From: Chloranthus sessilifolius
Lineage: Eukaryota; Streptophyta; Magnoliopsida; Chloranthales; Chloranthaceae
Assembly (NCBI GenBank): GCA_021018995.1
Contig: CM037587.1
Span: forward strand, 68,653,604-68,717,603
Reading direction: 5' to 3'
DNA length: 64,000 nt
Positions 7,143 to 64,000 of the stretch are shown in pieces; position 1 is the first letter of the stretch; each line of letters starts with the position of its first letter. The translations under genes were made by a program, and so were the position numbers. The notes below the pieces were generated by a model. That model saw only the letters and a program-made list of their open reading frames with translations, searched no databases and was not told the DNA's origin.

Positions 7143-7562
7143 TGTAGACACCAAAATTTAGCCTAAGGCTCGATCGAGACACATTGCGAGAGAGGTACAC
7201 TTCCGAGCTTTTGATGGCATGTATGGAACCCTTGGGAACCTTCCAGAAACCTTAGGAGCCATCCCAAACCCTTAAGAATCACCTCAGATCCCTTAGAAGC
7301 CTTCTCGAAACCTTAGAAACCCATTCCAACCCTTAGAAATAATTCTGAACCTAAACCTAGCTTTCCCGAGCCATAGATGAAAAGTGGTACACTAGGACTA
7401 GCTGGGATATTCTACTGCAATCGAATCTCATGACATTGAAAAGTACAAGTCCTCAGCTTTCCAACAGGCCAAGGATCACCCCAATCAGAGCTATACATCA
7501 AAAGTTACGACCTTCTGAAGTGTAGGAGAAAAATGGTAATTTAGTGGAGTTCCCCCTAGGCT

Positions 7563-7733
7563 TTGGCGCAAGTATTACTTGCGCCAACCCATTTTCCCCA
7601 AGAAATGGCTTGGCGCAACTAATAGTTGCGCCAGCTTTAAGATGGGCCCCACCTCAGGCAGCCAACTTCCAAGCCACTGTGGAACACTGTTTTACTGTAC
7701 ATATGCCTGGCACACCTATTAGTTGTGCCAGGC
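7563..7733. promoter_or_regulatory. Three hairpin palindromes of the TGGCGCAA family in the D LTR
   Basis: 7563-7587 has arms TTGGCGCAAGT and the exact complement around a 3-base loop. 7611-7633 has arms TGGCGCAACT around AAT. 7705-7733 has arms GCCTGGCACA around a 9-base loop. They end directly at a TATA-like box. Related hairpins recur at 9524-9641, 24198-24221, 27831-27901 and in the 3' LTR. A role as protein-binding or promoter elements is inference. Confidence 0.8.
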
Positions 7734-7745
7734 TTATAAATAGTA
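7733..7745 (+). promoter_or_regulatory. TATA-like box abutting the third hairpin
   Basis: CTTATAAATAG directly follows the hairpin at 7705-7733. In the 3' LTR the matching site has decayed to CTTATGAACAG. Confidence 0.5.
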
Positions 7746-8013
7746 ACCCTACATTTTTGCCTCGAATTTTGAGATTGGGGTTTGACATGTTGACCATCTT
7801 GATCTTTGGGATGTGTTTTGCTAGTTCTGTTGCACCCATTCACTACCTATTTATAGCCCCTTAAGTAATTTAAAGCCTCACACTATCATCCACCATTGGA
7901 GCTAACCTTCACACATTTCAAGGCTCCAAAAACCCTAGGAAACCTTAGATGGCTACATTACCTAATTGCTAATCCAAGTTAGCCTCTAAACACCCTCCTA
8001 ACCTATCTTTTTC

Positions 8014-8022
8014 CTATAAATA
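8014..8022 (+). promoter_or_regulatory. TATA box of the D LTR promoter
   Basis: CTATAAATAGAGAGGCACCC is followed within about 80 bases by a CT-rich leader (8085-8103), the usual arrangement of a plant LTR promoter and transcription start. The copy in the 3' LTR reads CTCTAAATAG. Confidence 0.65.
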
Positions 8023-8854
8023 GAGAGGCACCCCTCCCTTTACAAAGGCTTGAAAAAATTCTCAAAATTAGAGATTAAGAAACCTTTCTCTCTCTCTCTC
8101 CTCTAGTGCACTTTCTCATACAGATTTTAGAACCTTCAAACCCTCTTTAGACCTTAGCTTTACATCTAAAAGCCTTAGTTTAGGTGTGTGCTACCCCCTA
8201 GACTTCTCTCTCTACCTCTTAGCCATCAAGCCCTAGCAGCTAGAACCCTAATTCTCACCATATAAGCCTTCAAAGCTCATTGAAGCAAGCCTACGCAAGG
8301 TTCCACAGTGGTGCAACAAGGACCCGAGAGCTCTAGCTCTCCCTTGTATTCCTCTACCTTCTTGGCTCTCCCTCCATCCTCTCATTTGTTTCGTTACGCC
8401 GTCGAATTTTCGATAGGAACGGAGGGGCATAAATAGGATTTTAAGGCCCTTATATCATTTTTATTTTGGCCTTAAGTAGAGACAGTATTAAGCGGGTTGA
8501 TTGAGTGCTTAACACCTTCCAAATTGATAACTGAAGCCCCTACCCAAGAGCCTTTGGAGTAGTTAGAATTCAGAGTCAATTTTTGGCACTTCGGTGCTCT
8601 TTAAATTTGATTTGAATTTTCTGGGACACCAAAAGCTCCAGGTGGCGACTCTAAAATTTTTCTGGCGATCGTAAGTGGGATCGTCTCGATTCCACGCTAG
8701 TAGATGATGCGACTCTCAGGAGTAGCTAGTAGAGCTTCCCCTTGAATTTGGCCCCTTTATTTTTTTGATTTACTAATCATTTTGGCTGTTTTTAATATTT
8801 TTTTAATCACCCCTCCGATTACGTCCTTTTACTTACCCCTACTTTTACATTATT

Positions 8855-9045: not shown

Positions 9046-9523
9046 TATTTCGCTAGTGAACGCCGGCCCATAGAGGTGGCACAGGATCATCACCCCAACC
9101 AGTCTTTGAACTTAAAAAAAAGTACAATTGAACTAACAAAAGGAACTTAAATTGATTTTTTTGGGGTAGATTTTTACGGGTTGGGTTATTTAGGCACACA
9201 TATAATCTCTCGGGTCTTAGTACGGCGGTAGCCCCTAGTGGTGATGATTAGGAAAAGTCCCAAACCACCTAGTACCTGAGAAAGTTCTTGCACTTGAGGT
9301 ATATCGGGTGGGTAACCTTCTCGTTACCAAGCTTAAAACTCGGGGGAAAAGTGAGCGTTAGTAGACTCGCACTGGCCTTGTAACCCTTCGGTTTGGTGAG
9401 GAAGATAGCCGATTCATTAAAACAATCAGTCCCCGAAAGCCCAGCTTCTAGAAAAAACCAGTTAGAAGACTCATTTCGGGCGAGAACCTCTGCTGTGAAA
9501 CTGTCTAGAGGCCCTTTTTTGCC

Positions 9524-9641
9524 TGGCGCCACTATTACTTGTGCCAAGTCAAAAAACCCCAGGATTACATTGGCGCATGTATTAGTTGCGCTAGTATAAG
9601 AGTGGGCACTTTTTAGTCTAGCGCACCTAACAGTTGTGCCA
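9524..9641. promoter_or_regulatory. Second cluster of three TGGCGC hairpins in the D leader
   Basis: Imperfect hairpins at 9524-9546, 9571-9592 and 9619-9641 keep the TGGCGC ... TTAGTTG(C/T)GCC pattern of the LTR hairpins. The cluster originally lay upstream of gag, before the solo LTR at 9663 separated them. Which gene it served is unknown. Confidence 0.65.
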
Positions 9642-10034
9642 ACTTTGGGTTAGATAGCAATATGTTAAGCAGTAAAAAATACCATTTTTCACCTCCTAAC
9701 CTGACCTTTAATGGACCCTTGAGCTGACTAATATGGTGTTTTAAGTGTGTTTTGTAGATAAGTAATAAATTACAGCCTTAGTGCAGACATCCACCTAAAA
9801 TGGCCAAAGAAGCAGTCTACTGCTCAACATGTGCTTAAACAACCCAGAGGTTAGCCAATCAAAGAAACCACAGAGCCTTAAAAGTTCATGAGAATGTCAT
9901 GGACCCAACTGAGTATGCTTGGGACCAAGTGCAGTTGCAAGGAATGATGATTGAACCCACCAAGAGGCTACTAAGTGCTGACAGATGAAAGACAACACAC
10001 CAAAGATGTGTGCCAGTTGTGGGAACTCAAGGTA

Positions 10035-10690
10035 GAACATCTCGAGAGGACACTCCAAGCTGTCGAGATGTTGGGTTACTCAAATACCAAGTTTTCGAGA
10101 GGTTCCTAGTACCTATCAAGAGGTTCTAGAGACAAAAGTTAAGCTGTCGAGAGGTTCCATGAACCTATCGAGAGGATTAGAGAGTGTACTCCAACCTGTC
10201 GAGGAGTTAGAAGGAAAAGACGCCAAGCTCTCTAGAGGTTCTGAGGTAAAAGAGTGAAGAGTCCGAGAGGATGAAAGATCCTGTCGAGAGGTTGGAAGTG
10301 TAGTGAAGGATCTTTTCGACACCTGACCTGGAGGTGCAGGGGAAGTCGAGAGGTTCAACTGAACCTGTCGAGCAGTGCAATGCAACCTGTCGACAACTGA
10401 CCTGAAGCCATGCTCATTCTCACGAGGATTGAAGCAACCTGTCGAGCACAATCTCCATCTTGTCGAAAGCTCAACTGCAGCCTAACAAGAAGTCGACAAG
10501 ATATTGTATAACTTATCGAGTTGATTGGAAGAGAACTGGATAGAAGATGAGAAATGTTGTCAATCTTGTCAACAAGTTTAAGAGAACCTGTCGAGAAGTC
10601 TCCAATCCTATCGAAAGCCACATGAACCTGTTGAAATGAAGATCAAGCAGACTCAGAACCTATCAAGAGGTTCCCTGAACCTCTCGACAC
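10035..10690. promoter_or_regulatory. Array of GTCGAGAGGTTC-type motifs in the solo LTR
   Basis: Around 20 imperfect copies of (C/T)CTGTCGAGAGGTTC occur on both strands, for example near 10141, 10200, 10275, 10350, 10375 and 10578. The position within the LTR matches the CGAAAAG array of element A's LTR, although the core differs. A TATA box follows about 280 bases downstream. Confidence 0.75.
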
Positions 10691-10966
10691 TCGAATTGGG
10701 AACTTCTTGGTTCCTTTCAAAGCAGCTGCCAACTTCAAAATTTTGTGCACGAGTTCCGAGGCGTGTTAATGACCCTTGGGGGTATTTTTGGAACACAAAT
10801 GCACATGAATGGGAACCCTCTAACTGCATCACATGTGTTTACCAGTGTTGGACCAATGGGGAAAGAGCTTCTAGAAGAAAAATCGGTCACATCAGCAGCT
10901 CAGAATAACAGAATTATCCCCTTGGGCTCTGATTGGCTAAAACAGATCTGAGAAGAGAGGAGAAGA

Positions 10967-10975
10967 GTATAAAAG
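10967..10975 (+). promoter_or_regulatory. TATA box of the solo LTR
   Basis: GTATAAAAGCTTGAAG lies downstream of the motif array and upstream of a pyrimidine-rich leader, as expected for the LTR promoter. Confidence 0.6.
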
Positions 10976-12326
10976 CTTGAAGAATTTACAAAGCTAGCAT
11001 CCAAAATTCGAGATAACTAGAGTCAAATATGATTTCCATTTCCCTCCAAAAGTTCCCTCTCTCTTCCTTCTTCCCCAATTCTCTCCTCAACCAATCATGG
11101 TTGGCTAAACCTCTTCAGTAGCAAGGGTGAGGTTGAGAGCTGTAAATTGAAAGTTTCAGAGGCTATGTAGATGGATTGTATGTTACACAGATTACAGATC
11201 TGAGCACAATAGGATTGCAAGTTGTGTTATTGAAATGTAATTATGGTTTTTAAATGCGATTCTGATCTATATTTCACTTTTTCATATTTGATTTCTCTGG
11301 ATTGGATATTCCTGTGGATGCTTGAGCTTCTAGTCTGGCACCCACAACATTTGTAATAGCTTACCTATTCCAATCAAGATCCTTGAATTGGAACAATTTC
11401 TGGGATGATCTGTGACCATTTGAGTGGACAGATCATAGCCTTAGGACTGCTTCAATTCTCTGGTTGAGAGTGGATTCTTATACCTTGCATCTGAGCTTGT
11501 AGCCAGATGAAGGATTGCTGCAAATCTATCCTATGCACTACCTTGATTCAATTGATTTTCAGTAATGACCAAAATCCCTAGCTTCTGCTCTCCACTTTTG
11601 ATTTTAATCTTTTCTATTCCCTTGAATCTGAGTTTAATTAGTTTTGGATCATTTTACATTTGATTTTTGTAATTTTTAGGAAAGTGACATCTCTTAGAAG
11701 CCTCTCCTCTTTCCTGTTTTGATTTGTTTTAAACTAAGATAGGTTAGAGTGCAAGATCTGTTATAGATCTGGAGATTTACTATATTTTAGAACACATTTC
11801 CCTATGGACATACCCTTACTTATCTCGTAAAGCTTATTGCAATAGCCCTGGTTCTTACAGGACTGCTTGCTTACCTTGGGCCCATACCTCTATACTTTGT
11901 CCTCCTATTTTGACATTTTAACTCTTTAATAATTGTAAGGTAAGCAAGACAACACAGCAGCCTGAATCTGTGGCCTGCTTACATTCCATACTCCCCGATT
12001 AGTGTCTTTAGTGCTTCGGTTTGGGCCTCACAATCTCCGACACCAAATACGCCCTCGCCAGTCAAGAGAAGGTGACTTCTTTTTTACTCATTACGAGGGA
12101 TCGGGTTGTTTACGTTGGTTTTTGTGCCTTCAATAGATCAAGGGGTTACCCTTTGATTCTTCTGAAGCGCTTTAGAGCCTTTGCCACGGAACCTATTTAG
12201 GATACGAGAGCCACCCAAAAAGGGAATTCAAAAGGCCCCGGAATCCTTAAATCTTTTCACTTATAAAAATTCAAATAATCAAATAATCAAAAACCCAGAA
12301 ATAGAGTTTTGTTTGGTGCTAGCACA

Positions 12327-18660: not shown

Positions 18661-18689
18661 TCAGGCAGCGTTCGATAAAATCAAAAGCT

Positions 18690-24197: not shown

Positions 24198-24221
24198 CTG
24201 GCGCATTAATACATGCGCCAG
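24198..24221. promoter_or_regulatory. TGGCGC-family hairpin upstream of AS2
   Basis: Perfect 9-bp arms CTGGCGCAT and the complement around a 6-base loop. Same family as the LTR hairpins. Confidence 0.8.
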
Positions 24222-27802: not shown

Positions 27803-27901
27803 CTCTTTAAAATTGATCCCCAGCCATGCTTGGCGCATGTATTACATTCTCCAGGAAATTTTGGGCCCCCAGTTGGCTTGGCACAACTAATAGTTGTGCC
27901 A
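27803..27901 (-). promoter_or_regulatory. Hairpin pair and TATA-like site upstream of AS1
   Basis: 27879-27901 is a perfect hairpin with arms TGGCACAACT around AAT. 27831-27853 is an imperfect one. On the minus strand they are followed, about 20 bases on, by the weak TATA-like ATTTTAAAGAGCC (27803-27813). This matches the order seen at AS2 and in the LTR. The distance to the first exon is about 800 bases, so a 5' leader is required. Confidence 0.55.
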
Positions 27902-28079
27902 GGTCACTTTTGGGCTGGGTTTTGACCTGGTATACTCACAACCCGGTACCCCTTCGCTTTGTTTTGTTATCCCCAGCAGGTGCACATGCTCCCACATGGT
28001 ATGTCGATCCTCATTCGGCTTGCTCGGGAAGCTATGCTAGAGTAAGTAGATCGAGATCGATGAGCATGCTCAAAGAATC

Positions 28080-32244: not shown

Positions 32245-32345
32245 ATATCGAAAAATCAATACATATCGTCCTGACCTCCAGGACGATACGTATCGGGTAT
32301 TGTCCGATACATTCAATGTATTGGCGATACATTGAATGTATCGGT
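32245..32345. repeat. Nested palindromes beside the hAT remnant
   Basis: TATCGTCCTG / CAGGACGATA are perfect 10-bp arms around ACCTC (about 32265-32289). Directly after, ATACATTCAATGTAT and its exact complement stand around TGGCG (about 32307-32341). CGATAC repeats several times. Such short repeats are usual in the subterminal regions of hAT transposons. I infer this is the 3' subterminal region of the transposon; its terminal inverted repeat was not located. Confidence 0.5.
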
Positions 32346-44580: not shown

Positions 44581-44905
44581 CTTTTCGAGAAGTTTAAATA
44601 TGTGAAAAATTAATTCGCAAAGTAAAAATTGTCTTTTCGCAAAGTTCAATTTGCTTTTCGAAAAGGATTTGGATTTGTAACGAACTGCTCGAAAGCAATG
44701 ATTTGCTTTTCGAATAGTTGTTTCTGAAGCCATTTGCTTTTCGAAAAGTTGTTTCTGAAGCTATTAGCTTTCGAATGGTACTGATGCCATTCTCTGTTGT
44801 AAAAAGGACTGTTTTGGAACTTTTTGAAAACTTAAAAATTACTTTGCGAAAATAACTTTGAGCATATTTAAACCCTTTCGAAGTAAGGGTTTCATATTCG
44901 AAAGC
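44581..44905. promoter_or_regulatory. Internal TTTTCGAAAAG array upstream of the element A extra ORF
   Basis: About twelve copies: CTTTTCGAGAAG (44581), TTCGCAAAG (44614, 44636), GCTTTTCGAAAAGG (44653), GCTCGAAAGC (44687), GCTTTTCGAATAG (44705), GCTTTTCGAAAAG (44737), GCTTTCGAATGG (44767), TTGCGAAAA (44844) and TTCGAAAGC (44897). The core is that of the LTR array, but the spacers differ (TTTCTGAAGC, not CCTGAACT), so it is not an LTR fragment. A TATA-like CATATTTAAA lies at 44863-44872, about 310 bases before the extra ORF's ATG. Confidence 0.85.
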
Positions 44906-47711: not shown

Positions 47712-49459
47712 ATCACATTGTACTTATCTGTCTTATGAGTTTGTAATATAAAATTCTGGTTTTTCTTGTGTAATTACTATGCATTTCTGTTCTTTCTTCT
47801 TGTCATTATGATTTCTGTTTGATTGTTTCTTCTCTTTACTTTGGACCAGTACGGACCCTGCTCACCATAGGTTTGGGGGTGTGGCAGAAATGTCAATAAT
47901 TGAGTTAACATCAATGCAGCTTATGATTAGCAAAATTTTATTTTTTGAAAATGAAGTAATTTCACACCTGTTGTTTTGAAAATGAGGAAGTTAAAATTTT
48001 GCTTTTAAAATTGATTTCTAGTGTAATTCTAATACTTTCATGAAGTGAATGTCAGAAAATTTCCAAAAAAAAAAAATTAAAAAATTAAAAATTGATGTTG
48101 TAGTGAACCTAAAAAGAGAGAAAACAGTGATGATATACTTCAAGAATTTGATAGAAAACCACACTCAGTGAGATTTGGGCCTGCAGAAATGTATTCTTTG
48201 GAGGTATGAATTGGCAATTTTTCTACTCTTGGGACTGTTTGAACCTGCTTCTTTTCACTAGAAGTTACACATATTCAAATTGAAATAACTTGACAGCAAT
48301 CATGATATTAAAGACATGATGTAAGGCCTCCTTCTGGACAGTTTGAACCTTACAAAGCCCCACCTTTTGAAACTGCCCTTGATACACACCATTTGAGCTT
48401 TATAAATCTAAGATTTCTTTGAAACCTCATCAACCTCATTTAGCCTAATCCTCACTCTGAGAAGTCAGAAGATAAAGGGAAGGAAGCTGAAGAAAGGAGA
48501 ATTGAGTAACAGTTTGATCAAAGAAGAAGAATCATAATTGAAGGCAATAATGTATCAGCAGAAGAAATGTGGCATTTCAGTCAATGTTACCTTGATAAAA
48601 AAAAAAAAAAGAAGGAGAAGGCATTTCATTGGAAGTTTGAAAAAGAAAGAGAAAAAGATGGTCACTTTGGCTCTGAAAATTCAAAGAAGATGAAATTGTG
48701 CTGAATTGCAGAAGGTGTGTCTATCACCTCCTTACCTTGACTGACTTCTCAATTTTGAGCTCCATTCCACCCTTTTATTCTTGATAAATTTCACCCATTA
48801 CAACCCAAGAAAAGTCCTTGCTGATCAATGATGGATTGAGCTGTCACATGGAGATAAGGATCTGTGTAATCTATGGTAAAAAGAGCAGTGAATTCAGAAC
48901 TAAAGAGCAATGCCTATGCTCATGCTTACAGTCCTATTTAAGGGTTGTAACTGCTCTTGAGCCGTGTGAATGGTACAACCCTCTTATTTGCATGTTGAGT
49001 GAAAATCCTGGAGAGAGTTGGGTTTGAAATCAATTCATTGGGGTAACATCAAAACTGAATTCTCAAATAGAAGGCAAGCTTTTCACTAATTTTTCTTTTA
49101 GAAACTTTTTGACACAAATCAAGTGAATGGTAAAAGAGTTACAGCAGAATTTCAGTTTTGAACTGATGTTTTCGTGAAAATCATATTATAACTTGACTGA
49201 TGCAGGTGTGAATAATCTGATTGGATGAAAGTCTACTTTAATAGAACTGCATTAATATTAACGGATTTATTGGAGAAGTTTGTGGGTACCTTCACTGAAA
49301 ACCCTCAGGAGACTTCACTCCTCCACTAGGGATCACCTATGGGTTTAAAAGGCTTGTTGTATATGCTAAATGCAACTGTGTTCCCTACAAAAGTGGCTTT
49401 TTATTCTCTTTTTAATTTTGACTTTGCTCAGGGACTAGCAAAGCTTAGGTTTGGGGGTG
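47712..49459 (+). other. Element A 3' non-coding region with two polypurine tracts
   Basis: No real ORF. The 15-mer AGGTTTGGGGGTGTG occurs at 47869-47883, soon after the extra ORF, and again at 49447-49461, where it forms the polypurine tract and LTR start. A-runs at 48064-48078 and 48599-48611 are present. The block 49285-49395 (AAAACCCTCAGGAGAC, CTCCTCCACTAGGGATCACC, CATATGCTAAATGCAA-like) is shared with element B at 55765-55870. Confidence 0.8.
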
Positions 49460-51299
49460 TGTTGAGAACTAGAAAATACCATTTTCCACCCTTTAACCTG
49501 GGCCTTGATAGACCCTTGAGAGAACTAAATAAGTGTTTTAAGTGCTTATGTTACAGCTAACAATAAAGACAGGCTTAACCATGAAAGCAGCCTAAAAGTG
49601 CCAAAAAGATGATAATCCATGTCGATCCAAAGGAAAAAAGAGAAGGGACAACCTCGCTAGCTGTCAAAATGCCTGAACTGAAGAGGCAAAGACCTGGTCT
49701 CAACCTAGAAAAGAAATGTGGAGCAATTCGAACAAAAAAATGCACTTCAGAGTACTTTTCGAAAAGAACCTGAACTCTGCGAAAAGAACTAAAAGCTCCA
49801 GGCTTAGTTTTCGAAGAGCACCTGAACTCTTCGAAAGGATGATTGACCTATTCGAAAAGAAGAGAACTCCTTGCGAACAGAACCTGAACTTTGCGAAAAG
49901 AGCTTCAGGAGTCACAGTACCTTGCGAAAAGTTCCCTAAACTATGCGAAATGGTATTCTGGAGATTCCTAGCTTCTGCAAGGGTAATTCAGTAATCTTTT
50001 GCACGTGTCTCAATGCATTTAAAAACCTAGGGACATTCCAAAAGATTCTAAGCACTAAGTGAAGGCATATTCCACCCCATGTGAGCACCCAAAGATGAAA
50101 TCACTTGGCGGGAACTTCTAGAAGCTCTAACAGATTTTCAAATTGCATAACAGAATTGATGCTTATGTCGCCTGATTAGCTGAACCAGATCGAGCAATTC
50201 TGATTGGCCAAAACAGACTTGGATCCTTGTGCTCGACTACCATTGGTTGATACAATTATGAGCACTTCTAATTGGTCGATACGCATCTGAGCTAGATCTG
50301 GGGAAAACTATAAATATATGAGCCATTTGCCCAATTTGGGTGTCCAGATTTTGAGTTTCATTCCTGTTCCCCCATTTCCAGATCAGCTAGCCTGTCTGAA
50401 ACCTTGTAATAGTATAACTTTTACTTGCAATTGAGAGCTGTGAGATATCTCTGTAATTCAAAAGAGGATTGTATTCAAGACTACAAATCTGAGAGCTATT
50501 TAAGCTGTGCTTTGTAATTGTAAATGTGAATTTGAAAAGGTTGCTGTAAACCGTACGTTCTCAATTGGATTTGTGTTAAGGATTCCCTCTCATCTCCTTA
50601 TTGCACTAGACTCCTTTAGATTTACTGTTTTTCATGCAATTTCCCTTGATTCATTAACCCTGTGGGAATTAGTGTTTGTAACCTAATCTCTCACAGCATT
50701 TGTAGTGATATTTCTTGTTCTGAATTAAGGGTTTAGATTAAAGACTATTGGATGGTCTGTGGCCATTAAAGTGGACAGACCATAACCATAAGCCTAAATT
50801 TAATCCTTGAGTTAGATTTATTTCTCTTGCATCTGTGCTTGTAGCCAGATGAAGATTGGATCATCTCTCATTTGCCCTGTAGTCACTCTCATTGTGTTTC
50901 AAAGACCAAATCAAAGTTAGATATTATTTCTCCATTTTATAAATTTACATCAAAATTCGCCCAACTCAGATCTGGATCATTTAGTTTAACTTTTACTTTT
51001 ATCATTTAGTTAATGTGACAAATTCAACCTCCCATCTTATGTGCTCTGTAGATAGGATAAGAGGCCAGATCTGGTAGCTCAGATATGGAGGTTTAACTTG
51101 CATTTTAAACAAATTCTCTGTGGATGATCTTTTACTCACTTACATTTAAAACTTGCTACAATTGGCCCTAATCTTGCAGGCTAATTCACTTCTCTCTGTG
51201 CTGATATTTCTTAATTTTTTTCCCAGATTCAGTATAACTTAGCATTCGCAAACCTATTTTCAAAACACAAATAAATCATGCACACTAAGATCACCAACA
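49460..51299 (+). mobile_element. Element A 3' LTR
   Basis: TGTTGAGAACTAGAAAATACC to TCACCAACA, followed by the TGGCT duplication. Array at 49756-49955 and TATA CTATAAATAT at 50308-50317. It lacks the 24-base duplication seen in the 5' LTR. Confidence 0.93.
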
Positions 51300-51462
51300 T
51301 GGCTGCGGTTCTCTTCTTTCTTTTCAAAGCCAAACCTTACTTCGAGAGAACGAGCCAACATACTCACGGTAGCTCTTGTTCTTCTCCCAACGTCGGAGTG
51401 TTGAACATTCTAGTCACGCACTCTGTTTGTCAATCAGATCTGGTATGGTGGGAGGAGACCAT

Positions 51463-52290: not shown

Positions 52291-52914
52291 GTTCCTATAT
52301 ATCATGCTACCCCTACGCCTCCCACAGTGTCCCTAGATCATCAGGCTACAACATGTTCCTTCCAGCGTTTGGATAAAAATTATGGTTGTGTAAATATTTA
52401 CAATCCAATCTGGAGGAACCACCCAAGTCTGTCTTGGCAACATAAAGGGATGCGGAGAAATAATCAGCCTTTCAGGCCAATACATGCTCTACCATTTATG
52501 AGACAACAACATCATTCACCTCACGGGAATGATTCTTGGGGGCAGGCTTTGCTACTGACAGTCCAAACCTAGAAGCAACAGAGCCAACACCATGAGCATT
52601 CACTCCGCGCTCTCACGGATTCTTGAGTTGTTCTGACGACTCGCATTGAGGAGGTAACTACAATTTTAAAAAGAGAGGAGGCTCGGTTGCCTACATGACC
52701 GGTTGATGTTCGAAAAGGCAAAGCAATGGCTGGGGAGACGTCGTCTTCCTCTGATTCACCAAATCTCTTATATGTGCTTTTCACCTTGTCGAGCTACCGA
52801 CGCATCCGTAGCGCTTCTTGGGAGGCAACCCAAGCAATTGTAAAATTATTAATTCTAAGCTTTTAGGTTGTGTCAATGTCCTTTGGACTGAGAACAGAGT
52901 TCTCTAACAGGATT

Positions 52915-53185
52915 TAATCGGTCGGAACAGATTTTGATCGGTCAGGATGCTCCCATAGGAAGATACACAGCAGCACCAAGTTTCTGCAGTGCACAGGCTG
53001 GTCGAAAGTGGATTTCAGCCAGTCAAATAGATACCCTGTACCTCAAAACCGGGGAAAGTGTAAGAGAAATTCATTTTTCTCTAATTTATGGACCGATTGA
53101 ATCGGTTTCAACCGATCGAATTTATTGGCGTTGGGCTATTTAAAGCCCTTCAGACTAATCGAAATCTATTTTTGACCAGTCATGA
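52915..53185. promoter_or_regulatory. Internal ACCGGTCGA-type array with TATA-like box in element B
   Basis: Copies: AATCGGTCGGAAC (52917), GATCGGTCAGGA (52936), GCTGGTCGAAAG (52998), CAGCCAGTCAAA (53015), GACCGATTGAATCGG (53092), AACCGATCGAA (53110), ACTAATCGAAA (53154) and GACCAGTCATG (53174). GGCTATTTAAAGCC at 53134-53147 is TATA-like and palindromic. The small ORF's ATG follows at 53380. Same core as the B LTR array. Confidence 0.75.
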
Positions 53186-53379: not shown

Positions 53380-53616
53380 ATGGCCAATGAACCAGACTGG
53401 TCGGCTATTTGGAGGGCCATCACTGGTCGTTTGCAAAGAGGGGTGACCACAATGCTAGAAGAAGAGAAGGACATATGGGAGGCTATTCTCTTGTTTGTGT
53501 TAGACGTCGAATTCCCAAGTCCAGCGCCCCCTTCTTCGCCGACTTCTCCTCTTCCTCCTCCCAAACACCAGTGCCATCGGCTACCATCTCCGCCTCCACC
53601 ACCGCCTCTGGCATGA
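53380..53616 (+). CDS. Small ORF of element B, 78 residues, unknown
   Basis: ATG in a good context (CACCATGG). MANEPDWSAIWRAITGRLQR leads to an acidic helix-like part (MLEEEKDIWEAILLFVLD), then Pro-rich sequence. It occupies the place that the extra 3' ORF has in elements A and C, after an array and TATA-like box, but no similarity to those proteins is visible. It may be a remnant of a longer protein, with the Pro-rich part continuing in other frames to about 53750. It may also be meaningless. Confidence 0.35.
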   Translation: MANEPDWSAIWRAITGRLQRGVTTMLEEEKDIWEAILLFVLDVEFPSPAPPSSPTSPLPPPKHQCHRLPSPPPPPPLA

Positions 53617-53759: not shown

Positions 53760-55966
53760 TTCCTAGGTTTTTAATTTTTGTCCAAATGATGTCTGTAAAT
53801 TACACCGTTTAAATATATATACAGTGTCTTTTTTTTTTTTTTGTTAATCTTGTAGTTGCTAACAATTCTGTGAAAGTGTGAATGGTCCTATCGAACAGGT
53901 TTGGGGGAGGTACATAGTTCCTTTTTGTTCCCATATGTTTAATTTTGGGGTTTCTGACCCAACCTATCGGATGATTTTAATGTTGTATTTTGGCTTAGTT
54001 TTCCCAAGCTATAGTGCTTATTGCTTGACCACTTCACACCTCTTTATAATTGCCTTGTTACTTTATAGTATTTTATTTTGTGCAATGTGGACATAGCACC
54101 ACTTAGGTTTGGGGTGTTGTGCCAAACTTCGTGGTTCATAATAATGAGTATCCTCAATCACATATTGGACAACTGTTTTTACCCTCAAAACCTTGTTTTA
54201 AAACCATCAAAAGTTTATTTTGCCGAAGTTTTTAAAATATAGTCAAAGATGCATGCAAATTTTAATTTTTCAATATTCATGCCATGATGAAACTGATTGT
54301 TGTTTAGGATAATTAGCTCCAATGTGAACATGTAAGGATTGGTCTGGATTTCATGTCTAGAAATTTTATGTACACTATTTGCTATGTTTGGGCCTAGAAA
54401 TCAAAAGATTGGCTCAAATATGGAATTTTAGGATTCTAAAATTGACTACACCCAGAAAGCTTTAGAAATTTTACCTCGTTCTTGATGAGTGCTAAAATAA
54501 ATTTGGAGTATCTTTGAAATTCATGCTTAAATGTTTTACTCTCATATGCTTTATCTTGGTTTGTTGATTATGCATTGTTATACTATTGTACTAGAACCCA
54601 TTGTATGTGAATTCAAAACAAGTAAGCATCATTATCACCGTGAAAGGAAATGATCAAAGGTCATCTATTGGCTCGTTTGTGCTCGAAAATGCCCCACCTT
54701 ATACTGATTTACCTTTTTGTACCCCCTTTGAGCCTTATTAAAATATTTTGCCTACAAATAAATTTCTTGTTAAGCTACAATAGCCACACCCCATACCAGT
54801 ACTGAAGAATGTAAACCCTACCCTTCAATTTTTGAGAAATTGAGAGAGAGGGGCGAGAACCAAAAGAGGAAGTATAGGGGAGTGGGGATATATGCTTGCA
54901 AGAAGCATGTGGCAAAACTGAAAAAAAGAAAAAGGGAGAGAAAAAGAAAAGGAAAAGAAAAATATATTTATGAAAAAGGTAGAAAAATTTTTATGAGGTG
55001 GAAATTCAAAAAGAAAAGAAGGAGAAAGAAGAAAAGAAAGTTGAAAAAAAAAATTATTCTTAGAGATTAGAAAAAGAAAAAGCGGAAAAATTAAGAAATC
55101 AAAAGTAGTTTCTTTTCTGATTTCTCAAAGAAATTTGATCCCCAACTTCCCTTTCTTTCTGAACTTTTACCCGAGCCCCATTAGAACCTTCAGAAAAACC
55201 TTTTTGATCCAATATTGGTTGGTAACTGCCTTGTGGAGAGTGATGATGCAATGTCTATGGTCCCTTGATATAACATGCTTAGGGTGCAAACGTTATTATT
55301 TATGAGATTACTTTTTAAATTCTTTGATGCACCATCTTTTTTATATCATGTGATATCTTTTTTATTCGTGTTGTAATTCCATCTCACATGTGACTGACAA
55401 CGTAGACTATTCATCAGAGTGATTTTGCTGTCAGTGTATACCTAAAGTGAGGATTGAGTCGAGACTTGGGATCCGAGGACTCCCGATTTGGATTAATCCA
55501 GAGATAGAACGATTTAAGTATTGACACATGCACACAACACTCTGGGCATGGATGAAAGATTAGGCTAAGGATCAGAGTACTGGGTGGTTATTTGGAATAA
55601 ATAACAGTGAAACTGTCATGGTATCGGTATTTTGAAAAAGAATTTCCATGCTGACATGATTACAGGCTTGGATTTGTAACTGTATATATATTATATGAAA
55701 ACCAGTTTTGAAAATTCTTTTACCAATGGTTTTGAAATAGTTTTGGAAGTTTATAGGTGTCTTCACTGAAAACCCTCAAGAGACACAACTCCTCCACTAG
55801 GGATCACCAAGGGGTTTAACGGCTTGTTGCATATGCTAAATGCAATCGTGCTCCCTACGAAAGTGGCTCGTTTAATTTCTTAGATTAGTTATACACTAAT
55901 TTGATTTTGGGTTATGGTTTAACGTTGCCTTTGCTCGAGGACTAGCAAAGTTGAGGTTTGGGGTTG
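53760..55966 (+). other. Element B 3' non-coding region with two polypurine tracts
   Basis: TTAGGTTTGGGGTG at 54103-54116 is close to the real polypurine tract TTGAGGTTTGGGGTTG (55951-55966) before the 3' LTR. A run of almost pure A/G with AAGAAAAGG units (54915-55085) gives a Lys-rich ORF that is a composition artefact. The block 55755-55870 and the phrase GGACTAGCAAAG (55939-55950) match element A at 49285-49395 and 49432-49443. Confidence 0.75.
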
Positions 55967-57510
55967 TGATCGGACCCAAATATTGTACAAATTATTCCCA
56001 GATCGTAGCTTTGTTAGACCTCACTTAACCACTAATATACGCTTTTAGTTCGTGTTGTGTTGCAACAGGTACAAAAGTTGATTAAATGTCAAACTGGTTA
56101 AAAGTGCAAAGTTATAAATAAACCCAAGCAAAAGGTAAGGATCCAAGGAAGAACTAATGAAGGAATGCGTCCAAAGCTTAAATGGACCGGTCGAAACTGC
56201 AAATTTGACCAATCGAAATAGTGCAGTAGAAGGGGTTCCCAGCTGAAGAAGAACAGAGCTTAAATGGACCAGTCGAAGCACATAATCGACCGATTAGAAC
56301 TCCAGAAGGCTTCAAAAATGCAAAAAGGCGACCGGTCAGGATTCAACCGACCTGTCAAATTCGAGCTAAACAGAGGATAGAAATCACAGAGGAATTAACT
56401 GACCGATTAGAAATAAAGTCAACCGGTCCATTAAATAAAGAAGCTGAAGCCTCCGCAAGTTGTCTTCTACCTGGAGAAGGAAAGTAAAGCTGACCGGTCG
56501 GTTCTCCAACACTGACCGGTCGGAACAAAGTTTTTGTGCGAGAAATCAGGTCGGTACAGCTGTGGATGACGCCTAAACTCCGAGATCCTCTTCGGAAATC
56601 TCTTCTAAACAATCAGGATAACTCCAAATCGCACAGATTTCCATCTAAACTCATCTTCCTTGCAGGATTTTTAGGATTTAAAGAATCCTTGCCGTGTATA
56701 TTTGTTCTAGGGCCTTGTAATCTATAAATAAGGACCCTAGGTTTTAGTTTCTAGGGGACTCGCACGCCGAAATCTTTCTAGAGAGCTCCGACGTGAGTTT
56801 TCGTAGTTTTAGGTTAGGAATAGTTCTGGAATAAGAGTGAGACTGGATGTAATCATCAATGAGAGTCTGCATCAGCAATGATGGAACTCTCTGAATCGAT
56901 GCACTCTTAAAGATTCGGGTTGGATCTCTTGTATTCTGGATAAGTATATTTAATGAAGTTCTGTTTCTTTTTCTACTTGTGAATTCCATTAATGGTACGA
57001 TTGCATGTTAGAGGTTCCGACTAGATTGAGAACGAGATAGTAACGTTGTAGTCTTATTTAGCATAATTCAGTGGTCTTGTAGGGATTGGGTTAACCTAGA
57101 TAGGATATTCACTAACGGACTAGGCGTTATAGGGTAGTTTTGTTGGTTTGTGCAATGGTTCTTTGACGATTAGGTCTGTCTAACCCATGATTAGATTTAC
57201 CAAAGCCATATACGAAGTAACTGAGCTTGTAGTCAGGAGAGGGAGTACTAGGGATTCATGGTAGAAAAGAAGTAGGATTTATTATTATACGAATCTAGAA
57301 TCCAATAGGGATTCCAATCTACTTTCCCCTTTCTTATTATTAAAACTATGTAGATTTGTTTATTTAATTTAGGAATCTAATGCTACAAAGTATTTCATAA
57401 AATAGAATTAAGTGAGAGATAAATGACAAATCCCTGTGATTCGACACCCTTGGACTCTCCCAAGTACATATGAACTTATGCACTTGCAAGGTCATATTTT
57501 AAGACGATCA
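55967..57510 (+). mobile_element. Element B 3' LTR
   Basis: TGATCGGACCC to GACGATCA, followed by AGTAA (57511-57515). The array at 56185-56530 and TATA TCTATAAATAA (56721-56731) match those of the 5' LTR. Confidence 0.9.
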
Positions 57511-57515
57511 AGTAA

Positions 57516-59010
57516 CTTAAATACTATTCCAAGCACATATAGCATCAGAAGCCACATATATATAAATGGGAATCCCTAACCATCATCGTTCAATGAATCA
57601 TTTTTCATAAATGTCCAGGCCCCTGCGTTGTGAGGGATGCTTATGTCGAATGAAGCTTTACCGTTGACTGGTAGGAATGTACGGATATCCCGCCATATCG
57701 GAGCACAAGGGATTCATTTCACATGAACCTTAAATCATTGTATAAATTCTAACTTATAGTTTTCACACCATGTAAAGTGATTACATTATAATTATTTTTG
57801 AAGACTAGTATTCATACACGAATCCTAAGTTCACACAACACACTTATCACATCACATTTCAATTTCATTTACAAAGCTTGCTATGAAAGATTCAAAAAAA
57901 TCAAATGTTTAGATGCATATAGGCTTATCATGCTTTATCTTATCACATCATTCAATCTATACAAAGACTCCATATGGATATTCACCAGTTTAACCTACAT
58001 CCCAAATCATCCAAAGACTCTTTAGAAATGTCTAAGGAAGCCTAACGGTTGAAGTTTTTAAAAACTTCACAAGAAAAATAGTGAAAATGCCTTAACTCTG
58101 TATCTCGCGCACGCAAAATGCAGGGTCAGGCGCACGAGTCACATGGCCCACACAGCTCGTGCGAGTAAGGCACAGAGGCTCACTGGTGTCTCTCTTTCCC
58201 TTTGTTTTTCATGTGCATGGGGCTTATCTAAAGGAATCTCATGCGCATGTGGAGCAATGCTTGTGTGAGCGAGATTCAGAAACTCTTCAAATCTCATAAT
58301 TTCTGAACTTATTTCTCTCGTGATTTCTTGTCATTCATACCCACACTTCACACAAATTTATACACATCTAAGTCTACAATTTTAACATCTTTGAGTAGCG
58401 GTTTATCATCTTCCAAGCTAGCGAAATCACGCGATACGAAAAAAGTATCGGAGCGGTTTCCTCTCTTTACACACAATGGGTCTCAAAACTCATTCGGCCA
58501 CAATCCACGCCCTGCCAACTCTCACAACATCTCAAATCAACGGTAACTACTCCTTCAACAAAATTGCAGAATTTTATGAAGGCTTAACGCCCCAGAGTAC
58601 ACGAATTTGGTGAACCCCTTCTTCTCCTTCGCAACCCTTTCTCACTCTCTCTCTCTAAGTAAGCAAAGTAAGCAAAAATAGATGAAAGAGAGTTGTGCAT
58701 GTGAGGTCACTCCCCACATATCTATAAGTGTTTGCTTCAATGTGAAGCATTCACACACAACATGTGTGTGATCACTATCCATTTGAACTTCTTAGTGTGA
58801 AGCACATACACACATAGGTGTGTGTATGTGAAGCTGCTTTGGTTCCAATGCAAACCCCACACACCTAACCTGGTACCGCTCATTCTCACGTGCTCACTGA
58901 TCGTTACACACGCACATATTGATCCCGTCAAATCCCAAATGGTATAGAGCCCCGTACCAATACATGTACTTATTTGGCTTACTCGATTTCCTAAATCTGG
59001 GGACATTACA
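57516..59010 (-). mobile_element. Element C 3' LTR, proximal piece
   Basis: On - the LTR starts TGTAATGTCCCCAGATTTAG at 59010, directly after a polypurine tract. It has a possible TATA site CTTATAGATATGTGG (about 58715-58730), CT/AG-repeat leader (58640-58660), and the CTCGCGC-type array (58103-58275). It is cut by element B at 57516; the rest is 34446-35129. Confidence 0.75.
58103..58275. promoter_or_regulatory. CTCGCGC / GCGCACGAG motif array in the C LTR
   Basis: TCTCGCGCACGCAAAATGC, GGCGCACGAGTCAC, GCTCGTGCGAG (palindromic, about 58155), CATGTGCATGGGG, TCATGCGCATGTGG and GTGTGAGCGAGATTC. The inferred half-site is CTCG(C/T)GCG. The internal counterpart is at 61627-61857. Unlike A, B and D, this LTR array lies downstream of the only TATA-like site I found. 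Confidence 0.6.
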
Positions 59011-60336: not shown

Positions 60337-61405
60337 CTATGAATCCATCCTTTTAAAAAGTTCTGTCGTGAAGTCCTCACAACCATATGGAGGAATTTGT
60401 GGATGTACTGGAGTGTACTGTGGTGGTATCGGGGGCAGAGCTGCCTGCTCTGGTCCTAGGTGAGGGGGTTGTTGTTCTTGTTGTTGTTGTGCATGTTGCG
60501 TTATGTCTCTTTCAATTTTTCGTATAACACTTGCTTGGAGGCTGGTGTAATTGAGGTTCAGATCCTTAGCCCGATAACTTTTAACATTATCCGTGGAGAG
60601 GGGTTCATCCGGGTGAACCTCATAATTGTTGGCTTCTGATGAGGGCTCGTACTGCTCAATCATCCTTGAGATTAATCGAGCATAGGATAAAAGGTATAAT
60701 ACAGTTGGAACTGCTCCTGGCTTTGTACGCTCATGGGCGTATTTTATTCCTTCTCTCACCAAGGCAGGTGCATTAAACCACCTATTTTGGTAATCCACAA
60801 ATAGGGCTTGAAGGAAAGAATCCCGCCGTTCTTGTTCATGGCCCAATGGATAAAGATTTTTCTTGATAATTATATCCAAAGGCCATAGGTGCTCTAGCAA
60901 TTGGGCCCTCATAACGGATTTCCCAGTTCCAGTATCTCCAGTGGTCATCTGAGCCACAATGTGATGAAAATTGTCTAATTCACGGATTGGGGACCCCACA
61001 CCCCCATCATCCAAAAATTCCCAAGAGCAATTCATAGCCTTGGCAATGTCTTTTTGGGCAAAGACAAGGGTCTTCTTGTCAATTATGGCGATCAATTTAG
61101 TGTTAGTGGCGGTCCATCCGTAAAGTTTGATAAAACAACCAAACTAAGTGCGGGTAGTAGCAATCATAGAATGGACGCAAAATTGATGTCATCACGATCG
61201 TTGTGAGGTAATTTAGGGTCCACTCCATGGTCGGTAAGTTCTTGAAGAGATCTTTGTGAAACGACCATTCAAGTTCAAACGTTTTTTATTCCCACCATTC
61301 GGCGGGTTGGACACGAGGGTTAGGTGGAGGAGCCACCTTAGCTTGCTTAGAACTCGACGGTTTTATGGCCAATTTCTTCATATGAGTTGAGGTTTTTGGT
61401 GCCAT
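60337..61405 (-). pseudogene. Element C extra 3' ORF, homologous to the extra ORF of element A
   Basis: ATG at 61405 (MAPKTSTHMKKLAIKPSSSK), a basic Lys/Ser/Pro start as in A. TAG or TAA breaks occur near 61286 and 61100-61140. The open part 61095-60337 has DIAKAMNCSWEFLDDGGVGS, HHIVAQMTTGDTGTGKSVMR, YPLGHEQERRDSFLQALFVD and WFNAPALVREGIKYAHERTK. Aligned with A: MVAHLTQGIVGTGQSIMRRD, GHIQERRTPILEALFHF, then FNAPMLIFEAM. GTGxSxMR and GHxQERRxxxLxALF are shared. A Gln-rich tail (QQQEQQPPHLGP) follows. Function unknown. Such an ORF is usual in Athila but less expected in a chromovirus. Confidence 0.75.
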
Positions 61406-61610
61406 GATAGGGTTTTCTAAGAAAAGAATGAAATTGAGTTCCAAAAAGGTAAAACTTACCTCCTTCATGAATAATATCCAAGGGATTTTATTGGAGATGT
61501 ACAACTTAATCGATTTGGAAGAAAATCTGACTTCTCACCCAAAGAAGATGGAAGGAACCCTATAAACTCCCTTTCATTTCACGCGAAGTGACCAAGAAAA
61601 GGGTTAAAAC

Positions 61611-61857
61611 CCTTATATAGCTTGATACTCGCATGCACGACAACTAAGGCTCGGGCGCGCGAGTCTCAGTCCGTCACAGGGAATTGAATTCTATTTTTTT
61701 TTTTTTTTCTTTCTGAGTGACTCACACGAGCAAGATTGGGACCTCAGGCATGTGAGTTTCAGCATACCATAGGGAATCGAATTCCCTTTCTTATGTTCCC
61801 CTTTCAGAGTGCCTCGCGCGAGCGAGATGTTAATCTCATGGCGCGCGAGTTCACAAG
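61611..61857 (-). promoter_or_regulatory. Internal CTCGCGCGAG array and TATA box upstream of the element C extra ORF
   Basis: On + : CTCGCATGCACGAC (61629), GGCGCGCGAGTCTCAG (61653), CTCACACGAGCAAG (61721), GGCATGTGAGTTTCAG (61747), CTCGCGCGAGCGAGA (61813; CTCGCGCGAG is a perfect palindrome), TGGCGCGCGAGTTC (61840). On - a TATA box CTATATAAGG (61621-61612) follows, then the ORF's ATG about 205 bases on. The motif family is that of the C LTR. Confidence 0.7.
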
Positions 61858-62109
61858 CATCTCTTTTTGTGTTGCTTTCTATTTTATTTTTCATTTCTTC
61901 TGCTTTCAACATCATCTCTACAATGTTTGAGGCACCTTTTGGCATCAATCCTTTTACTTAAACTCCATCTACATCAATCAAACCTTGTCGGTCTCTTATG
62001 GGGCCAATTCATGATGATGTTATTCAAGATAATCAAGTACTAATTTAACACTAATCTAACAATAAATTGAAACTTGAAATGCTAATTCTCATTATAAAAC
62101 AAAATTTTT

Positions 62110-63280
62110 ACACATGGTTCACTCAAACAATTGCGGGAACTCGTCGCTCATGTCCAACTCGTGTTCCCATGTGGCTTCTTCCGGCTAATGGTTCTGCCAT
62201 CTGACAAGCACTAATGTGATCCTTTGATATGTAGTACCTATTCTTTCCGATCAAGAATTTGCACCGGCTCTTCTCCAACCATCAAGTCTTCTTGAATTTC
62301 GATCGGTTGGTAATCTAGGACGTGAGTTGGATCCTTCATGTATCATCTCAGCACTGACACATGAAACACGTTATGCATGCTTGAGAGTTGCGGTGGTAGG
62401 GCAACTCGATAAGCAACTTCTCCAATGCGTCCCAAAACCTCAAAAGGTCCCATGTAACGTAGACTCAACTTTCCATGCTTCCTGAAATGCATTATGCCTT
62501 TAGTAGGCGAAATCTTGATGAAGACATTGTCTCCCATTTGAAAGAAATGTGCGGCATTAATATTACAACTATACGTACATATTTATCGAAGTTTGCATTG
62601 TAACTAAGGTATTAAGTTTACCTGAAACTCAACGCTTATTCTTTTAAGGTCAGCATAGCTCTTTTGTCGGCTATGTGCGACATTTAACTTTTCTCAAATC
62701 AAGCGTACTGCTCTGATGGTACTTTCAGTAATTTTTGGACCCAAAATGAATTTTTCTCCTATTTCTTCCCAATTTATTGGAGATTTATATCGTCTCCCAT
62801 ATAAAGCTTCATACGGTGCCATACCGATACTCGTTTGATAGCTATTATTATATGCGAATTTGATTAGGGGTAAATGTTGATCCCATGATCCTTGAAATTC
62901 AAGCATACAAGCTCATGGGATGTCTTTTATGATTTGATTTACTCTTTCTGTTTGTCCATCTGTCTATAGATGAAATGTTGAACTGAAGTTCCAGCCTCAT
63001 ACCCATCCCTTCTTGAAACTTCTTCCAAAACTGTGACGTATACAATGGATCTCGATCTGAGGCAATGCTTACAGGAATACTGTGCAATCGTACGATCTCT
63101 CTCATGTATATTTCTGTAAGTCTACTTGCTATATACGTCATATTGTATGGCAAGAAATGGGCTGACTTGATCAGTCTATCGACGACCACCCAAATGACAT
63201 TGTGCTTCCTCACTGTCCGTAGCAAGCCTAAAATAAAACTCATGGAAATGGATTCCCAATTCCACTCTAGTATCGGTAAT
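62110..63280 (-). pseudogene. pol: Element C integrase core, GPY/F module and chromodomain, decayed
   Basis: WNWESISMSFILGLLRTVRK then HNVIWVVVDRLIKSAHFLPY (63275-63155) is the chromovirus core. The first catalytic Asp (normally D in ISMDF) is Ser. SIASDRDPLYTSQFW keeps the second. YNNSYQTSIGMAPYEALYGR (62848-62789) follows in another frame. GDNVFIKISPTKGIM, LRYMGPFEVLGRIGEVAYRV (62534-62400) is the GPY/F module. PEEATWEHELDMSDEFPQ, frameshifted at about 62185-62130, is the chromodomain end, which in living elements targets integration to marked chromatin. Confidence 0.8.
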
Positions 63281-64000
63281 GGTGCGGAGGTTAGTTTTTT
63301 CTTAAGTTCTTGGAAACTTTTCTCACATGCTTCAATCCACTCAAACATAACATCCTTCCTTGGGAGTCTTATGAGTGGTCCCGAAATCTTAGAGAATCAT
63401 TCTACAAATCTTCTTTAATACCCAACCAGACCGAGGAAACTGTAAAACTCAATCATAGTCCTTGGTTGTTCCCATTCTACCACAACCTCCTCGATCTTTG
63501 TCGGATCCACTATGACACCTGCTTCTGAGACTATATGACCCAAAAAGCTTTCTTGTTCTAGCCAAAACTCACACTTGCTGAGTTTGGCATATAACTGGTG
63601 TTCACACAACGTCTGCAAAGCGATCCTCAGATGCAGCTCATGTTCTTCCTTAGACTTTGAGTAGATGAGAATATCATCCATCAACACCACCACACTTGTA
63701 TCAAGATGTGGTTTGAACACCCTGTTCATGAGATTCATGAATGAACCTAGTGCATTAGTTAAGCTGAAAGGCATTACTAGGAACTCGAAATGCCCATATC
63801 TAGTTTGGAAAGCCCTCTTCTGAACATCCTCGACTTTCACTTTTAGCTGATGGTAACCAGATCTCAAGTCAATTTTGGAAAAGAATTGCTCCTTGTAATT
63901 GATCAAAGAGATCATCGATCATAGGTAAAGGTACCAGTTCTTGATCGTCAACTTGTTCAACTGACGATAGTCGATGCACAACCTTATCGACCCGTCCTTT
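63281..64000 (-). pseudogene. pol: Element C reverse transcriptase, partial
   Basis: From the window edge: KDGSIRLCIDYRQLNKLTIK, a frameshift, then [16 protein letters not shown] (first catalytic Asp in KIDLRSGY), [15 protein letters not shown], catalytic [19 protein letters not shown] (about 63725-63670), [19 protein letters not shown], and [11 protein letters not shown] with a stop at 63415. FEWIEACEKSFQELKKKLTS ends the thumb near 63290. The frame then runs directly into integrase WNWESIS, so RNase H and the zinc domain are deleted. MDD in place of YVDD/FVDD is normal or slightly changed. Confidence 0.85.

Follow-up and report, generated by a model that had tools for sequence, protein, structure and literature searches.

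Family-Specific, CpG-Cored Palindrome Arrays Recur in the Long Terminal Repeats and Upstream of Extra Open Reading Frames of Nested Retrotransposons in Chloranthus sessilifolius

We analyzed a 64,000-bp stretch of Chloranthus sessilifolius DNA (GenBank assembly GCA_021018995.1, contig CM037587.1, positions 68,653,604 to 68,717,603 of the forward strand), hereafter the window. Self-comparison and the printed sequence identified it as plant-type DNA with long terminal repeat (LTR) retrotransposons nested in one another, of which elements A to E are considered here. The LTR of each carries a cluster of short palindromes with a CpG in the core, and in A, B, C, and D the same motif recurs inside the element, upstream of an extra open reading frame (ORF). 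These palindromes probably constitute a family-specific code through which one protein complex would act on both the LTR promoter and the promoter of the extra gene. An earlier note had placed such arrays in the LTR and before the extra ORF, and matrices trained on the LTRs confirmed those places, with internal matches peaking there in A, B, and C. The array of E (10039-10690) and a leader array of D (9516-9643) were absent from that note.

In A, B, and C, the internal 500 bp with the densest matches to the LTR-trained matrices immediately preceded the extra ORF. All nine internal matches of the A matrix fell upstream of the extra gene, ORF3, in a segment that makes up 6.4% of the internal length (P = 1.7e-11). 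The corresponding segments held five of the eight internal matches in B (11.8% of the length; P = 9.4e-4) and five of the nine in C (12.9%; P = 2.9e-3), and the segment upstream of the antisense ORF AS1 of D held 4 of 16 (5.0%; P = 6.8e-3). These P values are binomial and uncorrected, and the segments are those delimited by the earlier note. In A, B, and C, the motifs were less frequent in the other internal segments; in D, however, the densest internal place was the leader array, and those before AS1 and a second antisense ORF, AS2, were weaker. LTR-array 10-mers were found in the upstream segment at rates of 22.3% (A), 22.7% (B), 23.0% (C), and 8.1% (D), compared to 7.5%, 11.5%, 12.8%, and 5.8% for control 10-mers taken elsewhere in the LTR, which approximated the expectation from segment length.

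The sequence around the motifs was not shared in the same way. With the sites masked, alignments of LTR and internal arrays were at chance level in A, B, and C (44%, 33%, and 16% of shuffles reached the score), so that the motif has been kept while the rest differs, and insertion of LTR fragments as the source of the internal arrays was ruled out in these three elements. For D, the score was reached by 43% of shuffles for the leader, 43% for AS2, and 4% for AS1, the last of which is borderline.

Words of eight bases were counted in each LTR on both strands with one mismatch allowed, and the 40 commonest were scored against 30 shuffles. A word of the motif noted beforehand ranked first in A, B, D, and E; in A it was nearly tied with AGATCTGG, and in the C LTR the motif did not rank first in this unbiased scan. 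The resulting LTR-trained matrices were CTTTTCGAAAAG for A, tcGACCGGTCga for B, TGGCgcAacTA for D, and tTcTCGAgAGGT for the solo LTR E. The C matrix for the cross-scan was trained on the internal array, and a separate LTR-trained C matrix was used for the enrichment test. Because palindromic cores were seeded after the 8-mer scan, the palindromy of the A and B matrices is not independent evidence. The cores are TCGA (A and E), CCGG (B), CGCG (C), and GCGC (D), each of which holds a CpG. Cross-scanning gave a result close to diagonal, indicating that the motifs are largely family specific. Off-diagonal matches included three of the A and five of the B matrix in E (the core of which is also TCGA), three of the B matrix in C pol, and four of the D matrix in the left flank.

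Element A has nine sites of the CTTTTCGAAAAG type in its 5' LTR (37219-37438; spacings of 20, 20, 32, 20, 21, 40, 34, and 21 bp), nine in its 3' LTR (49755-49952; 20, 32, 20, 21, 21, 20, 31, and 21 bp), and 12 with a score of at least 3 in the internal array (44581-44905; 30, 22, 21, 31, 21, 31, 30, 53, 22, 32, and 20 bp). The matrix had 10 matches per LTR, 9 of them in the array, and 9 in the 678 bp before ORF3; it had none in 5.7 kb of gag-pol, in ORF3, or in the 3' region. In B, 10 sites of the GACCGGTC type form five pairs in the 5' LTR (35346-35686), with 19 to 22 bp within pairs and 60, 42, 52, and 71 bp between them, and the layout is the same in the 3' LTR (56183-56523). The internal array of B (52914-53183) consists of eight sites with a score of at least 3, arranged as four pairs 19 to 21 bp apart and separated by 60, 74, and 43 bp. 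Matches to the B matrix numbered 9 and 10 in the LTRs, 5 before the short ORF, 1 in gag, and 2 after the ORF.

In C, the LTR array (58104-58275) has three good sites resembling CTCGCGCGAG, spaced by 25.5 and 27 bp, in addition to degenerate ones, and the internal array (61627-61857) has two pairs, 26 and 26.5 bp apart, and further sites. The internally trained C matrix had eight matches before the ORF, four in the LTR (three in the array), one in the 3' region, and none in pol.

Each unit in D is an odd palindrome of 21 bp, and three of the units are perfect. Three stand in the LTR array (7563-7730; 10, 10, and 9 of 10 positions paired; centers 47 and 97 bp apart) and three in the leader array between the 5' LTR and gag (9516-9643; 7, 7, and 6 of 10 paired; centers 47 and 48 bp apart). 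The distance from the leader array to the first long ORF (ATG at 12327) is about 0.4 kb, not counting E. The array upstream of AS1 (27830-27902) has two units with 48 bp between them, of which one is a perfect palindrome; it lies 1.05 kb before this ORF, the start of which is putative. The arrays reported earlier in the LTR and before AS1 were recovered, but the one before AS2 is a single palindromic unit (24198-24221) and the densest internal array had been overlooked. The D matrix matched 10 and 11 times in the LTRs (with 6 of the 10 inside the array) and 7 times in the leader; the segments upstream of AS1 and AS2 had 4 matches and 1 match, the rest of the antisense region 3, and 9 kb of gag-pol none. 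The inner bases of the units at 7563-7730 and 27830-27902 vary, yet the arms match in several (AAG/CTT, AAC/GTT, and ATG/CAT); the inner arms of the leader units do not match each other. This pattern perhaps reflects selection on symmetry itself.

The array of E (10039-10690) has 25 sites of the CCTCTCGAGAGG type, with all 24 center spacings of 20 to 23, 30 to 32, or 53 bp. In the self-comparison, each end of E was related to its counterpart in the A LTR (71% and 62%); the motifs between these ends (10039-10690 versus 37219-37438) differ and the spacing rule is common, as if the recognition module had been swapped in place.

Site distances in A, B, and E (19 to 23, 30 to 32, 42 to 43, 52 to 53, 60, and 71 to 74 bp) were near whole helical turns. 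Fifty-nine spacings were pooled from the A 3' LTR, A internal, B 5' LTR, B internal, and E arrays, with the A 5' LTR and B 3' LTR omitted as duplicates. Their best period was 10.4 bp, with a mean cosine of 0.83 that none of 4,000 random sets reached and that ranged from 0.79 to 0.83 across score cut-offs of 2 to 7; low-score matches of the same matrices outside the arrays (146 spacings), which served as the control, gave a cosine of −0.12. Taken singly, the phasing was equaled by none of 5,000 sets of uniform spacings for the A 3' LTR, A internal, and E arrays, by 4 of 5,000 for the B LTR array, and by 75 of 5,000 for the B internal array. Spacer pairs above the shuffled 99th percentile were few (A 5' LTR, 3 of 21; A 3' LTR, 3 of 28; A internal, 2 of 45; B LTR, 0 of 10; B internal, 1 of 6; E, 10 of 253), and thus it seems unlikely that duplication alone caused the phasing. 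Whole-turn spacing in A, B, and E fits proteins sitting on one face of the DNA. The distances in C (25.5, 27, 26, and 26.5 bp) were fixed in the LTR and internal arrays, and in D (47, 47, 48, 48, and 97 bp) a distance of 47 to 48 bp was kept in the LTR, leader, and AS1 arrays; both statements are descriptive and rest on few sites, and the C centers were placed by hand with the first internal site, at 61627, omitted.

CpG observed-to-expected ratios were higher in the phased arrays than around them: 0.91 and 1.39 in the A arrays versus 0.14 in gag-pol and 0.29 in the rest of the LTR, 1.19 and 0.79 in the B arrays versus 0.44 to 0.64 elsewhere, and 0.62 in the E array versus 0.16 in the rest. 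The ratio of the C internal array was 1.08 versus 0.69 in pol.

A TATA-like box follows the LTR array in A, B, and D. The claim that each of the four elements has such a box behind its internal array held for C, with TATATAA 8 bp past the array (61619, minus strand), and for B, with TATAAAA at 53305, 122 bp past the array. In A, however, the only TATA-like box, TATTTAA at 44865, is within the array, the box at AS1 is 386 bp away, and the strict pattern found none at AS2. TATA-like words occur 0.92 times per kb per strand, so that boxes near the arrays are weak evidence. B has a TATTTAA within its array as well, at 53137, and in both A and B this word precedes the last two sites of the internal array. 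Those two sites would therefore stand about at the transcription start, and a role in self-repression is possible.

In the mechanism that we propose, CpG-cored palindromes clustered on the U3 side of the LTR and again before the extra gene would each be bound by a sequence-specific protein, probably as a dimer. Neighboring sites in A, B, and E would lie on the same side of the helix, allowing bound dimers to touch, and one complex at both promoters may drive two transcripts, or shield them from silencing: the genomic RNA that starts in the LTR and an internal accessory transcript. An encoder within the element and one in the host are about equally probable. The earlier suggestion that a single family-specific switch governs at least two promoters per element is partly supported, in that the same motif stands at both places, with unrelated spacers, shared spacing rules, and phasing in A, B, and E; the promoters are putative.

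Several observations weigh against this mechanism. The sample is one copy per family, all within the window. The LTR array of C, although present as noted earlier, is weak, with three good sites and a motif missing from the top of the unbiased scan, and the arrays of D are also small. Whole-turn spacing was looked for in C and D and was not found. The 5' LTR of A includes spacings of 34 and 40 bp and has a lower cosine (0.75 at 10.4 bp), the B internal array alone has a best period of 19.7 bp (0.74, compared to 0.70 at 10.4 bp), and the long spacings of B alone reached a P value of 0.04. Related elements, A and E, both contributed to the phasing pool; the null of uniform spacings leaves tandem duplication outside its model, and mean spacer similarity was slightly above that of shuffled spacers in all six arrays tested. 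CpG was hardly spared in the C LTR array (0.70 versus 0.72) and was not spared in the D arrays (0.18 to 0.51 versus 0.40 to 0.47). The placement of TATA-like boxes is inconsistent among the internal arrays.

The closest precedent is the repeated motif (RM) of the Sireviruses, so that the architecture itself is known and is extended here to Ty3/gypsy elements, including antisense genes. In 13 Sireviruses, Bousios et al. (2010, PMC2829016) described palindromic repeats specific to each element, for the most part within the upper LTR half. Nine of the 13 have an ENV gene, and all nine carry linker copies, 77 of 79 of which are upstream of ENV; the four without ENV have no linker copies (PMC2829016). 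The repeat clusters form CpG islands in most of these elements, with a TATA box on average 37 bp past the island, and Bousios et al. took islands and TATA boxes as support for an internal ENV promoter (PMC2829016). The RM boxes thus agree with the arrays of the window in being palindromic, element specific, and CpG rich and in clustering upstream of TATA in the LTR and again upstream of an extra gene. They differ in that they belong to Ty1/copia elements with ENV genes and have a CGG-CCG core (except in Tnd-1), which is not the core of A, B, C, D, or E, and helical spacing is not mentioned in the available text (PMC2829016). The window elements differ further in their antisense genes in D and the leader array. 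The motif was called Sirevirus specific, being absent from the classic Ty1/copia elements compared (PMC2829016). A literature search recognized no such architecture in Ty3/gypsy elements, with the Sirevirus paper (PMC2829016) as its only match among the papers listed.

The extra genes bear on the source of the binding protein. ORF3 of A (45179-47711, plus strand) is not intact: its frame is interrupted by a stop at 45935 and changes further on. The extra gene of C (60337-61405, minus strand), also with a broken frame, is in the sense of pol and lies between integrase and the 3' LTR. The pieces of these two ORFs are homologous (33% identity over 112 amino acids; E = 8e-17), and by eye both start with a basic stretch. 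Two distant-looking Ty3/gypsy types therefore share an accessory gene family yet differ in motifs. What had been called the extra gene of B is indeed an ORF at 53380 (53380-53613, plus strand), but it encodes only 78 amino acids, in an element in which pol was not found, and has no Pfam or NCBIfam match. AS1 of D (26088-26777, minus strand) encodes a plant mobile domain (PMD; PF10536; E = 9.3e-16; 58.4 bits versus a cut-off of 34.9); AS2 (23240-23788, minus strand) has no Pfam or NCBIfam match.

No DNA-binding domain was found at the curated cut-off in the protein pieces of A, B, and C, and family scans of the A, B, C, and AS2 proteins gave no match at the cut-off, with no VANC sequence or model among those compared. 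Pfam matches below the cut-off (AF-4 in the end of A ORF3, Exo5 in C, TAFII55_N near AS2, and DUF3996) were disregarded as weak, as were Protein Data Bank (PDB) matches for the C ORF (E = 0.56 and 0.76); AS1 had no relative in the PDB up to an E value of 1. None of 389 candidates was homologous to the C ORF piece at an E value of 0.001, nor any of 6,983 to the A and C protein alignment at 0.01. Stretches resembling A pol (3) and AS1 (1) in viral contigs and A ORF3 (73) in bacterial and archaeal genome contigs were all unconfirmed, which means little because the sets consist of bacteria, archaea, and viruses. Structure prediction for AS1 and the C ORF was too poor to use (mean predicted local distance difference test scores of 38.6 and 41.7).

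By analogy with foamy virus Tas or VANC, the extra protein of each element might bind the array and activate or de-silence both promoters, a feedback that we hold to be a serious candidate, though short of an even chance. An extra ORF stands behind the internal array in all four elements. A and C have homologous proteins but different motifs, which co-divergence of protein and target would predict. VANC offers a case of proteins that bind motif arrays specific to their family (PMC5735166), and in the palindrome-bearing Sireviruses linker copies are present only together with ENV (PMC2829016). However, the four ENV-less Sireviruses retain LTR palindromes (Table 3, PMC2829016), and six ENV-bearing Sireviruses are without boxes, although they do have CpG islands there (PMC2829016). 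Further points against such feedback are that B has an array with an ORF of only 78 amino acids and that the A, B, and C pieces lack a DNA-binding domain at the curated cut-off. For D, the PMD protein encoded by AS1 is suggestive, as PMD relatives have been tied to a promoter motif in Arabidopsis (PMC7156037, PMC9899485): 25 of 26 genes jointly lowered in MAIN, MAIL1, and partner mutants carry a promoter "DOWN" motif (PMC7156037). Yet the DOWN motif as given for MORC1, CATGCAGTTT (PMC9899485), is unlike the D palindrome, and direct binding by PMD is putative.

Alternatively, each family could have captured sites for a host transcription factor, the same factor at both promoters, so that the two fire jointly; this, too, is a substantial possibility without being the expected outcome. 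It is in keeping with motifs that differ between families. The TTGGCGC of D is similar to E2F sites, as is the CGCG core of C to CAMTA sites. Sirevirus motifs were matched mainly to sites of stress-related factors (PMC2829016). However, unrelated factors would not predict five CpG-cored palindromic motifs, three of them with whole-turn spacing, and host factors leave the association of array and extra gene unexplained.

A role as RNA, in which transcript hairpins feed or evade small-RNA silencing, appears improbable. The D arrays fold well (z of −7.4 for the LTR, −3.8 for the leader, and −2.1 upstream of AS1), and Sirevirus palindromes attract small RNAs (PMC10760457). Clear folding is confined to D, however; the segments folded from A, B, C, and E had z values of 0.0 to −3.2. 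In A, B, and D the LTR array is followed by a TATA-like box, and hairpins do not predict helical phasing. Nucleosome positioning, with CG-cored sites at multiples of 10.4 bp setting the rotational position, would account for the whole-turn spacing but not for a precise family-specific palindrome of 10 to 12 bp or for the unphased C and D, and is more doubtful still. Least likely are functionless by-products, either minisatellites or LTR pieces copied inwards, for which near-copy spacers within the A and E arrays and the borderline similarity of the D LTR and AS1 arrays outside the motifs can be cited, against LTR and internal arrays whose spacers are unrelated in A, B, and C, internal arrays upstream of ORFs, and CpG higher in the A, B, and E arrays than around them.

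Beyond the shared code itself, it is conceivable, though we regard it as unlikely, that env-like, PMD, and antisense accessory genes form a broad class of self-encoded regulators in both superfamilies. Each would recognize the CpG-cored palindromes of its own family on one helix face at the LTR and at its own promoter; motif and protein would co-diverge, and each family would activate or de-silence itself alone. Self-regulation, if true, would answer the question of what the env-like and antisense genes of plant LTR retrotransposons do. It would also bring Sirevirus palindromes, VANC anti-silencing, and foamy-virus feedback under one logic. The shared family-specific array, phased in three families, makes the function of such extra genes directly testable on an element's own array against its neighbors' arrays, and five arrays with different motifs in one window provide a built-in specificity panel.

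To our knowledge, no palindromic phased array is known in foamy virus. Foamy virus is an animal retrovirus with transactivation demonstrated, and like the window elements as we interpret them it has an LTR promoter and an internal accessory promoter, both bound by the virus-encoded Tas (PMC4929722). The VANC likeness that had been drawn earlier holds for family-specific arrays of short motifs in noncoding parts of an element that encodes an accessory protein, but VANDAL elements are DNA transposons, and the VANC21 motif, YAGTATTAY, occurs in one orientation and is not a palindrome (Hosaka et al. 2017, PMC5735166). Binding has been demonstrated for VANC (PMC5735166), whereas for the elements of the window it is a prediction. 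Whether extra proteins of LTR retrotransposons shape methylation has already been raised, citing VANC (PMC12844716).

Among plant elements, Grande carries gene23, which has an internal promoter of its own and whose product is nuclear (review, PMC7264820). Like the antisense genes of D, gene23 and antisense aORFs are antisense accessory genes between pol and the 3' LTR, but an LTR-shared palindromic array is not described in the available accounts (PMC7264820, PMC11963269). For Retand, a role of the antisense proteins as DNA-binding regulators has been proposed (PMC11963269). PMD is found in 57% of Ogre elements, which resemble D as large Ty3/gypsy elements with a PMD ORF but for which the available text does not describe the array architecture (Neumann et al. 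2019, PMC6317226). Nuclear signals were predicted for a 3' extra ORF of a sunflower Athila element and for a 5' extra ORF of a Tekay element (PMC11728184); the extra ORF of C is 3'.

The remaining structure of the nested elements is as follows. A (plus strand; LTRs at 36924-38806 and 49460-51299, 93.5% identical) is flanked by the target site duplication TGGCT (36919-36923 and 51300-51304) and is nested inside B, 244 bases past the 5' LTR of B. B (plus strand; LTRs at 35130-36679 and 55967-57510, 87.5% identical) has the duplication AGTAA (35125-35129 and 57511-57515). C is represented by its 3' part; its partial 3' LTR (57516-59010, minus strand) begins with TGTAATGTCCC at 59010 and was apparently cut by B. 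The LTRs of D (plus strand; 7143-8693 and about 29079-30666) are 86% identical, and E is a solo or truncated LTR within D (9663-11909, plus strand, right border approximate).

Pfam domains in A were gag, reverse transcriptase (RT), ribonuclease H (RNaseH), and integrase, in the order RT, RNaseH, integrase. In C, RT precedes an integrase whose end is chromovirus-like, with a Tf2-1-like SH3 domain. As to a chromodomain, the Pfam scan gave no match at 62126-62281. D has gag, G-patch, RNaseH, and integrase domains, with RNaseH before integrase, and in B the scan found gag. By this domain order, A, C, and D are Ty3/gypsy elements, not Ty1/copia Sireviruses. From layout, domains, and LTR-end and primer-binding-site signatures, we take A to be Athila-like, C Tekay-like, and D Ogre/Tat-like. 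The Athila ORF-1 domain (PF03078) had no match in the ORF3 pieces of A at an E value of 0.1, which does not settle the lineage of A because only 16% of Athila elements carry that domain (PMC6317226).

Self-comparison yielded one strong match between A and B, of 85% identity, between 49275-49410 and 55746-55881, shortly 5' of the 3' LTRs; as a candidate RNA structure this stretch was rejected (folding z of −0.7 in both). A repeat search located seven copies of a 69-bp tandem repeat at 3571-4123 and an interleaved repeat at 4199-4407. GTATCG/CGATAC palindromes are clustered at 32276-32344, near an ORF at 32507-33388 (minus strand); our guess is that this region is perhaps a degraded DNA transposon in which the palindromes are subterminal transposase sites.

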